Below are positions 11,723 to 14,579 of a stretch of 52,495 bases of DNA, in pieces. This DNA comes from Flavobacteriaceae bacterium (lineage in GTDB: Bacteria; Bacteroidota; Bacteroidia; Flavobacteriales; Flavobacteriaceae): assembly GCA_024644725.1 (NCBI GenBank), contig JAHEHE010000009.1:1-52495 (forward strand), given 5' to 3'. Below the pieces are notes generated by a model. That model worked only from the letters and a program-made list of their open reading frames with translations. It did not search any database and had not been told where the DNA came from. Positions within the stretch are counted from its first letter, which is position 1, and the number at the start of each line of letters is the position of its first letter. Both the position numbers and the translations under genes were made by a program.

Positions 11723-12157
11723 TCAAAAGACGTAAGGAATCATCCTGTAAGTTGAGTTAAAATAATCTGTGTAACGAGACCCAAACCGTTCGATAAGATA
11801 CTTTTCTTCATCGCTTATTTTCAAAGCAAAGATCACAACTAAACACATCCATGCAATAAGACCCTGCCAGTTGAAATTACTGATTATTCCCGCACCAAAG
11901 AACAAGAGTAGTCCGGCGTACATCGGGTTCCGGATCTTGGCATAGGGCCCAAATTTAATAAGTCGCGCATTCATTTTGACTTCAGGCTGAGCATTGAAGT
12001 TTCCAATGCCCATGACCGCGATGCTCCACAAGCAAAGAAGAAACCCTAAAAACTGGATCAATATGAATATTCCGGAGGCGAGGAGTTCCTGAAAAAACAC
12101 GAAATATCCGAAACAAAGGAATTGGAGAGTCAGCAGGATTTTTGATCGTAAAGACAT
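11723..12157 (-). CDS. ICMT/PEMT-like membrane methyltransferase
   Basis: A 144-residue integral membrane protein with about four hydrophobic segments. The C-terminal motif pattern RNPMYAGLLL followed by an acidic EEKYLIERFG and a final Tyr-rich stretch is typical of the isoprenylcysteine carboxyl methyltransferase / phosphatidylethanolamine methyltransferase-like superfamily, which binds S-adenosylmethionine at this site. Bacterial members have mostly unknown substrates, so the role here is open. It diverges from the FecA-like receptor, with a 166-base regulatory region between them. Confidence 0.75.
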   Translation of the reverse strand: MSLRSKILLTLQFLCFGYFVFFQELLASGIFILIQFLGFLLCLWSIAVMGIGNFNAQPEVKMNARLIKFGPYAKIRNPMYAGLLLFFGAGIISNFNWQGLIAWMCLVVIFALKISDEEKYLIERFGSRYTDYFNSTYRMIPYVF

Positions 12158-12205: not shown

Positions 12206-12223
12206 ACATGACTTTTGTCATGT
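12206..12223. repeat. Perfect inverted repeat ACATGAC-TTTT-GTCATGT
   Basis: Seven-base perfect arms around a TTTT spacer lie immediately upstream of the first 23-bp operator-like repeat and share one base with it. It could be a protein-binding site for either divergent gene or a small hairpin. Confidence 0.5.
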
Positions 12224-12245
12224 TATTTAAAATTATTCTAAATAA
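12223..12245. promoter_or_regulatory. Operator-like palindrome, copy 1 (FecA-like promoter)
   Basis: A 23-bp element with perfect 7-bp outer half-sites TTATTTA and TAAATAA around a 9-base core. The same element recurs exactly 70 bases downstream with one base changed. This copy ends 5 bases upstream of the -33 TTG. AT-rich palindromes at iron-transport promoters are often sites for Fur- or DtxR-type metal repressors; which regulator acts here is inference. Confidence 0.65.
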
Positions 12246-12249
12246 GTCT

Positions 12250-12279
12250 TTGAGGAATAAAAATTTCAATTTACATTTG
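12250..12279 (+). promoter_or_regulatory. Promoter of the FecA-like TonB receptor
   Basis: TTG (12250-12252), a 19-base spacer and TACATTTG (12272-12279) match the Bacteroidota housekeeping promoter consensus. Operator-like palindromes lie on both sides. The predicted transcript starts near 12286, giving a leader of roughly 40 bases. Confidence 0.75.
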
Positions 12280-12292
12280 CTCTAATAATTGC

Positions 12293-12315
12293 TTATTTAA
12301 AATTAATCTAAATAA
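12293..12315. promoter_or_regulatory. Operator-like palindrome, copy 2 (FecA-like promoter)
   Basis: The second copy of the 23-bp element, differing from copy 1 only at position 14 (A instead of T). It lies just after the predicted transcription start and 8 bases before the receptor ATG, where bound protein would block transcription. Confidence 0.65.
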
Positions 12316-12323
12316 AAACAAAA

Positions 12324-14579
12324 ATGTTTAGGAGCACATTTTTCATCATTTTAGGACTCATAAGTTGGTCCGTTTTTTCTCAACAAAGCTATTATCAAGA
12401 CAGCATAATTTTTGTGACCCAAGACACTGTTCCCGTGGAAAAAGAACCCGAAATTCTGAATGAGATTATTCTATCACATAACATTTTGGGAAGCAAGTTC
12501 GAAGTAAAGAATAGAACAGGTTCGGCCTATTTCATCTCACCCCAGGAACTACAGCAATTCGGCTATACGGACATCAACAAGATTATCCGGGCCGTACCGG
12601 GTGTGACCATTGTTGAAGAAGATGGATTTGGATTACGTCCGAACATCAGCATCCGGGGTACCTCACCCGAGCGAAGTGCGAAGATTACCTTGATGGAAGA
12701 TGGGGTCCTTATAGCTCCTGCGCCTTACAGCGCTTCAGCAGCCTATTATTTTCCTACTGTGGGTCGCATTGAAAATGTAGAAGTTCTCAAGGGTAGCAGT
12801 CAGATTCAATACGGGCCTTTTACCACAGGGGGTGCGGTGAATATGGTGTCCAAGGAGATTCCCAACGACTTTTCGGGTGACGTTCGGTTCAACGCCGGAA
12901 ATTACGACTCGAGGAGCACCGAAGCGACAGTGGGTCATTCCACAGAGAATTTTGGATTCGTGACACAATATTTCAATTATAATTCAGATGGTTTCAAAGA
13001 CCTCGACGGAGGGGGAAATACCGGTTTTGACAAAAGCGATTATCTCGGTAAAGTGCGCTTGAATTCTGATTTGGATGCCAGAGTGTTTCAGTCTTTGAGC
13101 TTGAAATTCCAGTACTCAGAGGAGTCGTCCAAAGAAACCTATCTCGGGTTGACGCAGGACGATTTTGAAGACGCGCCCTATAGAAGGTACCTGGCTTCTG
13201 CAGCTGATCGCATGGATACCCAACACAAGCAGTTTCAGCTGGATCATTTGATCAAGCCCAGCGACAACCTGAAGATCAGAACAACAGCTTACAAAAATAC
13301 ATTTGACCGGAACTGGTACAAACTTGACTATGTCACGGTAACCGAAAAAGTCAAGATTGCCAATATTCTCCAGGATCCGGAACTTTACCCGGATGAATAT
13401 CGAGCCATAGAGAGCATGGAGGACACGGCAGATGACGTTTTTGGCGTGAAAGCCAACAACAGGTCCTATGAATCGAAAGGGATTCAATCGATTGCCAATA
13501 TCACGTTCGGGGAAAGAGCTTTCAACGATCTAGAGATCGGGATTCGTTATCATGAGGACTACGAAGACAGATTCCAATGGGTGGATGGCTACGCGATTCA
13601 AAATGAAGAAATGATTCGAACTACAGTTGCGCGAAAGGGAAGTGACGCCAACAGGATCAGCAGTGCATCGGCCCTTGCTGCTCATGTTCTTTACAAATGG
13701 ACTTTGAACGACCTCACCCTGACGCCCGGGCTTCGTTATGAGAACATGACATTGAAGCGAAAGGACTATGGAAAAAATGATTCTGACAGAACCGGTGTTG
13801 ATCTTTCCACCCGTGAAAACAAGGTCGATGTTTGGATCCCAGGAATAGGAGTGAATTATAAGGTTAGTGCGGATGTTACCCTCTTTGGAGGCGTGCACAA
13901 GGGTTTTGCACCTCCGGGCAGCCAGGAGGGTTCAGATCCTGAAAACAGTGTGAACTACGAATTGGGTACGCGTTTTACCGCCTTCGGGATTACAGGTGAA
14001 TTCGTTGGATATTACAATGATTATACCAATCTATTGGGCAGTGACCTTGCCGCATCGGGAGGAACCGGAAGCCTCGATCTATTCAATGCCGGAGCGGCAA
14101 CTGTCAGGGGTATCGAACTCTTATTGAACTATGACCTGTTGAGAAATAGCGACAGTGAATTGCGCTTTCCGCTGACCTTTTCGTACACCTTGACCGACAC
14201 ACGATTCGATTCTGATTTTGACAGTGATGACAGTATTTTCGGGGAGGTCATGAAAGGGGATGAAATACCCTATATTCCGAGGAATCAATTCAATATGACG
14301 GCAGCACTGGAAGGGGACAGATTTAATGTCAGTTTGAGCGGAAGATACACGAGTGCTTTCAGAACTCAGGCCGGAACGGGCGACATTCCACCCGAGTACA
14401 AGGTTCGCAGCAATTTTATCGTGGATGCGGCTGCCCGCTACTTTTACACGAAAAGAATTACATTTTCGCTGAACGTGATGAATATGTTCAACACGGCCTA
14501 TGAGGTATCGCGTACCCCTGCAGGATTGCGTCCGGGAGCTCCGTTCATGTTCAACGCAGGTGTAGGATATCGCTTTTAG
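12324..14579 (+). CDS. FecA-like TonB-dependent ferric-chelate receptor
   Basis: A 751-residue outer-membrane receptor with a signal peptide ending in SVFSQ. A plug domain follows (about 55-175), with GYTDINKIIRAVPGVTI, IRGTSPERSAKITLMEDGV and APAPYSASAAYYFP, which closely recall FecA-type Fe(III)-dicitrate receptors. A 22-strand barrel fills the rest, ending in GVGYRF with the terminal Phe required for barrel assembly. It lacks an N-terminal carboxypeptidase-regulatory domain and an anti-sigma signalling domain. It would import an iron chelate using TonB energy. The promoter is flanked by twin palindromes, suggesting metal-dependent repression. No partner ABC transporter is adjacent. Confidence 0.9.
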   Translation: MFRSTFFIILGLISWSVFSQQSYYQDSIIFVTQDTVPVEKEPEILNEIILSHNILGSKFEVKNRTGSAYFISPQELQQFGYTDINKIIRAVPGVTIVEEDGFGLRPNISIRGTSPERSAKITLMEDGVLIAPAPYSASAAYYFPTVGRIENVEVLKGSSQIQYGPFTTGGAVNMVSKEIPNDFSGDVRFNAGNYDSRSTEATVGHSTENFGFVTQYFNYNSDGFKDLDGGGNTGFDKSDYLGKVRLNSDLDARVFQSLSLKFQYSEESSKETYLGLTQDDFEDAPYRRYLASAADRMDTQHKQFQLDHLIKPSDNLKIRTTAYKNTFDRNWYKLDYVTVTEKVKIANILQDPELYPDEYRAIESMEDTADDVFGVKANNRSYESKGIQSIANITFGERAFNDLEIGIRYHEDYEDRFQWVDGYAIQNEEMIRTTVARKGSDANRISSASALAAHVLYKWTLNDLTLTPGLRYENMTLKRKDYGKNDSDRTGVDLSTRENKVDVWIPGIGVNYKVSADVTLFGGVHKGFAPPGSQEGSDPENSVNYELGTRFTAFGITGEFVGYYNDYTNLLGSDLAASGGTGSLDLFNAGAATVRGIELLLNYDLLRNSDSELRFPLTFSYTLTDTRFDSDFDSDDSIFGEVMKGDEIPYIPRNQFNMTAALEGDRFNVSLSGRYTSAFRTQAGTGDIPPEYKVRSNFIVDAAARYFYTKRITFSLNVMNMFNTAYEVSRTPAGLRPGAPFMFNAGVGYRF

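Follow-up and report, generated by a model that had tools for sequence, protein, structure and literature searches.

The DNA analysed here, hereafter the window, is a stretch of 52,495 nucleotides that makes up contig C112 of a flavobacterial genome of 2.83 Mb in 161 contigs. A gene for a TonB-dependent receptor and a divergent methyltransferase gene share an intergenic region in which a promoter and three palindromes are located (Table 1). The NCBIfam model nearest to the receptor is that of the TonB-dependent siderophore receptors, with a score below the cut-off (177.8 versus 223.5 bits). An earlier description made from the letters of the DNA (the sequence-only reading) had called the receptor FecA-like. 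This label is loose: the protein is a TonB-dependent receptor, but it scores 85 bits with the FecA equivalog model NF041676, the cut-off of which is 1100, and an N-terminal signalling domain of the FecA type was not found in it, Pfam giving plug and barrel only. Outside its own genome, the closest match (91 % identity) comes from a MAG with the title 'Bacteroidia bacterium'; among genus-named records it is that of Aureitalea sp. L0-47 (67 % identity).

Table 1 Features of the receptor promoter region (window positions) and other places of the 23-bp motif in the genome
Feature	Position	Strand	Remark
PEMT/ICMT-type methyltransferase gene, divergent	11723-12157	-	shares intergenic region with the receptor gene
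Third palindrome, ACATGAC-TTTT-GTCATGT, ACATGACTTTTGTCATGT	12206-12223	.	not conserved
Putative Fur box 1 (upstream operator), TTATTTAAAATTATTCTAAATAA	12223-12245	.	sequence, genome search and match to Table 5 of PMC5609570
-33 element TTG	12250-12252	+	19-bp spacer to TACATTTG
-7 element TACATTTG	12272-12279	+	fits TAnnTTTG; TTG-N19-TACATTTG
Putative Fur box 2 (downstream operator), TTATTTAAAATTAATCTAAATAA	12293-12315	.	in the presumed 5' untranslated region; sequence and ortholog pairs
TonB-dependent receptor, 751 aa, plug and beta-barrel	12324-14579	+	Pfam, NCBIfam; ATG at 12324
Motif at feoA-feoB			feoB named by eye
Motif at sufA-B-C-D run			B, C and D named by eye
Motif at sufS			
Motif between sufE and a SUF-associated gene			
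Motif between hemA (glutamyl-tRNA reductase) and hemH (ferrochelatase)	L017:6181-6203		
Motif between multihaem cytochrome operon and a small gene	L014:5479-5501		
Motif between ferredoxin and 2-oxoacid:ferredoxin oxidoreductase			KOR/ferredoxin locus
Motif divergent from a 2-oxoglutarate dehydrogenase-like gene			named by eye
Motif upstream of a fasciclin-domain gene	contig C126, L019:5929-5951		3 mismatches

Recomputed from the sequence, the two 23-bp palindromes share 22 of 23 bases; their outer 7 bp form perfect half-sites in both copies (TTATTTA/TAAATAA), and the start-to-start distance is 70 bp. The sequence-only reading had described them in these terms, and direct reading and recomputation bore it out; the coordinates of the palindromes and the promoter stand as first given. 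It had also placed a Bacteroidota promoter between the copies, which is supported by the two elements read there, and one site just upstream of the -33 element, in agreement with the 4 bp found between the end of copy 1 and the TTG. Copy 2 begins 13 bp after the end of TACATTTG and presumably lies just after the transcription start. A search of the methyltransferase strand up to 160 bp from the palindromes found no promoter of the TTG-N-TAnnTTTG type. When the window was searched with an even-centred 22-mer, copy 2 was matched only out of register (three mismatches) and copy 1 was missed, with 0 matches in 100 shuffles; this pattern was poorly chosen for the twin palindromes.

Using a degenerate 23-mer with up to three mismatches, 11 places were found in the genome versus 1 for the same pattern read backwards. 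Two of them are the twin copies at the receptor and the other nine lie elsewhere (Table 1; neighbouring genes were named from model matches where there were any and otherwise by eye). The search at other iron genes that the sequence-only reading had proposed thus located the motif near feoAB, suf and hem genes, and the count of 11 against 1 together with the iron-gene neighbours speaks against a random scatter over AT-rich sites. Two of the 11 places are without a clear iron link; the match at the fasciclin-domain gene, which has no evident one, may be a chance hit. Pooling the sites by inspection gave TTATTTAGAATNATTCTAAATAA. Among 198 genomes of the class, a match to the motif with two mismatches was present in 187 and Fur in 186, with backward-control counts that were high in many of these genomes, and this co-occurrence was set aside as evidence. 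A 46-aa cysteine-rich ORF (MSQASHYY...) lies at L012:6742-6882, shortly after a -7-like element and a putative Fur box; it had no Pfam match at E 1.

A literature word search with the 19-bp core led to a study of Riemerella anatipestifer, a member of the Flavobacteriales, in which the Fur box is given as ATTTAGAATTATTCTAAAT and purified Fur bound promoter fragments carrying such a box in EMSA (PMC5609570). The core of box 1 (12225-12243) is identical at 19 of 19 positions to the hmuR box, entered for HmuR in Table 5 of that study as ATTTAAAATTATTCTAAAT, and at 18 of 19 to the ATTTAGAATTATTCTAAAT consensus; for box 2 these values are 18 and 17 of 19. This match corrects the sequence-only reading, which had left the regulator as unknown: it is very probably Fur, judging from the box. 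A gene sharing the hmuR promoter was upregulated in a fur deletion mutant, in a Fur-box mutant and in low iron in a different strain (PMC11967795), and the site mutated there is taken to be the same hmuR site because the ATG distances of 25 and 78 match. Binding of Fur to the rhuB promoter in EMSA, as well as a Fur box and Fur control for feoAB, are also stated for this species (PMC10986502, PMC10434265). According to Table 4 of PMC5609570, expression of iron receptors in R. anatipestifer rises when iron is low and when fur is mutated; an annotated Fe-dicitrate receptor with such a box has values of 2.22 in low iron and 1.63 in the fur mutant with iron. The same source reports that the iron response of many genes, suf included, persists without fur, and that with iron the fur mutant has less feoAB expression (-2.25 and -2.22), which fits poorly with simple repression by Fur in that species. 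In PMC7976709, a different, E. coli-type sequence is quoted as the R. anatipestifer Fur box. The present boxes resemble those of R. anatipestifer in their near-identical core, their iron-receptor targets and their closeness to the start codon; Table 5 of PMC5609570 gives one box per gene, whereas here two bracket the promoter, as known from the sequence.

The genome encodes one Fur-family protein (PF01475), which matches solved Fur proteins with a best E of 1.4e-19 and the gene of which lies between spoT/relA-like and purA-like genes (by eye). In the alignment to a solved Fur protein, the HDH stretch and a later E and H, presumably metal ligands, are kept, and one of two neighbouring histidines is replaced by Q. 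Three DtxR-family proteins (PF02742) were also found. Two of their genes (L020 and L022, contig C82) are adjacent and are followed by a gene for a FeoB-like GTPase; one of the paired proteins has a FeoA-like C-terminal stretch by eye, and this is perhaps a second ferrous-iron or manganese locus.

Conservation was examined at orthologous promoters. Seventeen orthologs came from named records and 28 from 149 sampled genomes of the family; with the window, this gives 46 upstream regions. Some receptor match at E 1e-3 was present in 133 of the 149 genomes, only 28 of which, plus the window's own genome, had a receptor at least 51 % identical; the orthologs used are 51-91 % identical to the receptor of the window. 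L041, which is the window itself, and L070, which is 30 % identical, were left out of the ortholog set. A box was counted if at least 15 of 22 positions matched, and the expectation was taken from Markov shuffles. At least one box was found in 46 of 46 regions, against 15.1 expected, as single chance boxes are common at this threshold, and at least two in 44 of 46, against 2.9 expected; L039 and L062 have one box each. The 46 regions are not independent: over 150 bp there is no difference within two pairs, and a further three pairs have 85-99 % similarity close to the gene. The twin boxes are thus conserved at orthologous receptors, and this, together with the distribution near iron genes, supports the two-operator metal-responsive control of an iron receptor that the sequence-only reading had claimed.

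The promoter is conserved along with the boxes: 41 of 44 pairs enclose an exact TAnnTTTG that is preceded at 19-21 bp by a TTG (the exceptions being L032, L052 and L054). From the start of box 1 to the -7 element there are 47-49 bp in 33 of 46 regions and 33-34 bp in 11 of 46. The latter class consists of Flavobacterium records and one near-identical MAG, and the TTG lies inside box 1 there; the exceptions are L039 (56 bp) and L052 (107 bp, where a third, better-scoring box was picked). The distance from the start of the -7 element to that of box 2 varied more in the 44 regions with two boxes, being 7-9 bp in 11, 11-12 bp in 10, 19 bp in 1 and 21-25 bp in 22. By these distances, box 1 is fixed relative to the polymerase, with box 2 floating. 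Spacings between the boxes of the 44 pairs were 41-43 bp (11 pairs), 59-60 bp (10), 67 bp (1), 70-73 bp (21) and 132 bp (1; L052, with the third box picked).

The twin palindromes are very likely twin Fur boxes that bracket the receptor promoter and would shut the receptor off with iron. In the mechanism proposed, the single Fur-family protein of the genome would bind both boxes when iron is present. With box 1 abutting the -33 region and box 2 just past the promoter, such a two-sided block would keep the polymerase from binding, from leaving or from both, and the receptor would be off. When iron is scarce, Fur would leave and the siderophore-type receptor would be made.

Two other origins of the boxes were weighed against this reading. 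One is that they serve as operators for a protein of the DtxR/MntR family, of which there are three in the genome, the mechanism being otherwise as for Fur. The genes for two such proteins beside a FeoB-like gene make this conceivable, but for R. anatipestifer an identical core is reported to be a Fur box, on the evidence of EMSA and of a mutated box at the same promoter (PMC5609570, PMC11967795), and Fur is present here as a single copy, so that we regard a DtxR-type operator as improbable. That the palindromes are AT-rich chance matches or a mobile repeat without function is hardly credible. The motif is AT-rich, its weak matches are common, and in 28 of 59 upstream regions of the cytochrome operon treated below the backward control, too, scores 15 of 22. 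Against this stand the genome-wide count of 11 versus 1, the retention of pairs in 44 of 46 regions upstream of receptors that differ as much as they do, and the information content, which is 0.47-0.49 bits per column in the flanks versus 1.66 within the box (calculated from the 31 of 46 regions long enough to include both flanks; the picking of the box by score inflates the latter value). The chance or mobile-repeat reading is in the main already refuted.

How Fur would act through the two boxes can also be read differently. The sequence-only reading had suggested cooperative looping over about seven helical turns. A Fur-bridged DNA loop needing whole helical turns between the boxes would account for the keeping of two boxes in 44 of 46 regions, and short-range looping or condensation by Fur is stated for Helicobacter pylori (PMC5007355). 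However, with 10.5 bp per turn, 70 bp make 6.67 turns, and the spacings of about 42, 60, 67 and 72 bp among the orthologs correspond to 4.0, 5.7, 6.4 and 6.9 turns; looping is not supported because these spacings share no helical phase, and the quantity that stays constant is the distance from box 1 to the -7 element. The loop was rejected on the ortholog spacings and is considered very improbable. Box 1 might instead have a second role, compatible with the two-sided block, in which Fur bound there contacts the polymerase and activates or holds it and box 2 represses. The two classes of distance from box 1 to the -7 element hold for -33/-7 spacers of 19, 20 and 21 alike, the distance to box 2 ranges over 7-25 bp in the 44 regions, and the cytochrome operon has a like box at a constant distance upstream. 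Still, a repressor overlapping the polymerase would likewise constrain the distance, and 48 bp is about 1.8 turns from the 66-67 bp of the cytochrome operon, which would put the protein on a different face; such a second role is rather unlikely. The sequence-only reading is thus right in outline, with Fur as the likely regulator and without the looping.

It had further described a third, unrelated palindrome as abutting copy 1. This palindrome is present; in fact, it has one base in common with copy 1. With up to three mismatches it gave 1 match in the window, and at least one match was obtained in 3 of 100 shuffles. A second ATGAC-N4-GTCAT like that beside box 1, ATGACnnnnGTCAT, lies at L018:4441 in the 172 kb of partly overlapping own-genome DNA that were scanned. 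Apart from the window itself, the third palindrome was seen in 1 of 45 orthologous upstream regions (L024), on which ground it was rejected as a component of the switch; it probably does not belong to it.

Placement of the box at other members of the putative regulon was compared in the best 30 loci each for hemA, sufA, feoB, ferredoxin and actA, the name used here for the first gene of the cytochrome operon, from the 39-41 family genomes with a match. At 17 or more of 22 positions, a box was found at 28 of 30 feoAB loci (backward control 0), 25 of 30 hemA loci (control 0) and 15 of 30 sufA loci (control 4). With a threshold of 16, sufA rises to 24 of 30 (control 6 of 30), a count that depends on the start codon chosen (24 or 22 of 30). 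In 23 of 30 feoAB loci, an exact -7 element begins 8-10 bp ahead of the box. The exceptions are L133-L135, where its start follows the box start by 24 bp, and four loci without an exact element nearby. At sufA, the start of the element precedes the box by 11-13 bp in 21 of the 22 box-bearing loci. The placements at feoAB and sufA are off-positions. The ferredoxin/KOR locus was rejected as a core target, as 3 of 30 relatives have the box (control 0), which makes it lineage-specific; it was used as an internal negative control. From the hemA box to the -7 element of hemA (loci L071-L100) there are 78 or 86-88 bp in some loci and 152-154 bp in 20. The idea of hemA as an activated target in phase at these distances was withdrawn because the box also lies 34-35 bp past a -7 element on the opposite strand, beside the divergent gene, in 17 of 25 box-bearing loci; it may be the operator of that gene, and phase was judged from the actA distances alone.

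A different geometry was observed at the multihaem cytochrome operon. In the model libraries searched, no model named alternative complex III for this operon, and it is of this type in our own reading, from the multihaem cytochrome and the second gene, which resembles a TAT-variant molybdopterin oxidoreductase. The 59 actA loci (L191-L249) comprise the best 30 of the family and the best 29 new loci among 62 matching genomes of the order, the latter under ten family labels. At 17 or more of 22 positions, a box is present in 29 of the best 30 family loci (control 0) and in 57 of all 59 (control 0); at 15 of 22 the backward control reaches the 28 of 59 mentioned above. From the box start to the start of the -7 element, counted as an exact match to TAnnTTTG, there are 65-68 bp in 49 of 59 loci, 77-78 bp in 7 and 55 bp in one; a box is lacking in L205, and L237 has an inexact element, TAATTTCG, at 66 bp. 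These shifts are of about one helical turn, with none between, as expected of a polymerase contact on one face of the DNA. With four shifts judged to be separate (55 in L215, 77 in f70, 77 in L234 and 78 in L238), the periodicity was reached by 31 of 50,000 random sets, in a test chosen post hoc. In its right half, the box departs from the consensus and moves towards TTATAAATTA, and given this drift it may be bound by a different protein. In 15 of 58 loci, the box is 54 bp from a -7-like element on the opposite strand and may act on the divergent small gene.

From the geometry of these sites, Fur may activate the cytochrome operon. Among the genes most strongly induced by iron in Elizabethkingia anophelis is a quinol:cytochrome c oxidoreductase cluster (4.1-8.6-fold); it is called bc1 in that report (PMC7221216) and is, in our own reading of its gene content, alternative complex III. 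For R. anatipestifer, 'cytochrome c oxidoreductase quinone-binding subunit 1' is given in low iron at -1.01 in the wild type and -3.47 in the fur mutant, with a further entry at -2.23 (PMC5609570); this low-iron fall without fur argues against Fur as the only sensor. Fur of the Flavobacteriales could be a two-way regulator by geometry: a box past the -7 element, as at feoAB and sufA, or a bracketing pair would mean off with iron, and a box 65-68 bp (or 55 or 77-78 bp) ahead of that element would mean on, with direct activation of the multihaem cytochrome operon in all ten family labels. We hold this tentatively, at somewhat less than even probability, and keep the estimate modest because the fur-mutant results in R. 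anatipestifer cut against a Fur-only picture. Fur boxes upstream of iron-rich respiratory genes in a system of another phylum are the model for the actA case, whereas in the Flavobacteriales activation by Fur is a candidate only. A search for literature on alternative complex III, the ferric uptake regulator and iron found none, within a coverage outside which most subscription journals fall.

In Escherichia coli, iron-bound Fur covers iron-uptake promoters with multiple sites, and the present switch is like it in that Fur would cover the promoter with more than one site. The box differs from the E. coli-type box, GATAATGATAATCATTATC as quoted in PMC5609570. The metal-responsive compaction of promoter DNA by Fur of H. 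pylori is similar in that the promoter has more than one operator; looping or condensation is stated there (PMC5007355), whereas the spacings here are without a common helical phase. For the Flavobacteria, neither 'Fur box' nor 'binding site' occurs in the available text of a survey of the iron genes of marine members (PMC3475125). MliR of Bizionia argentinensis is a MerR-like iron regulator unrelated to Fur, the Fur homologue being left for later study in the accessible part of that report (PMC9478572). A survey of Fur operators in Flavobacteria beyond R. anatipestifer was not found by title and start of abstract, again with most subscription journals outside the coverage.

In conclusion, the twin-box switch is ordinary in kind and well conserved. 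With it, a regulator formerly unknown receives a name, and a checkable operator code becomes available for iron control in the Flavobacteriales beyond the single species for which a published box was found. The by-product at the cytochrome operon matters more than the twin boxes, and its activator-like geometry is the chief lead. If the two-way reading is true, the multihaem operon, one of the large iron consumers of the cell, would be directly activated by Fur, which would offer a reason for the iron induction of the E. anophelis oxidoreductase cluster (PMC7221216), and the composition of the respiratory chain would be set directly by the supply of iron.
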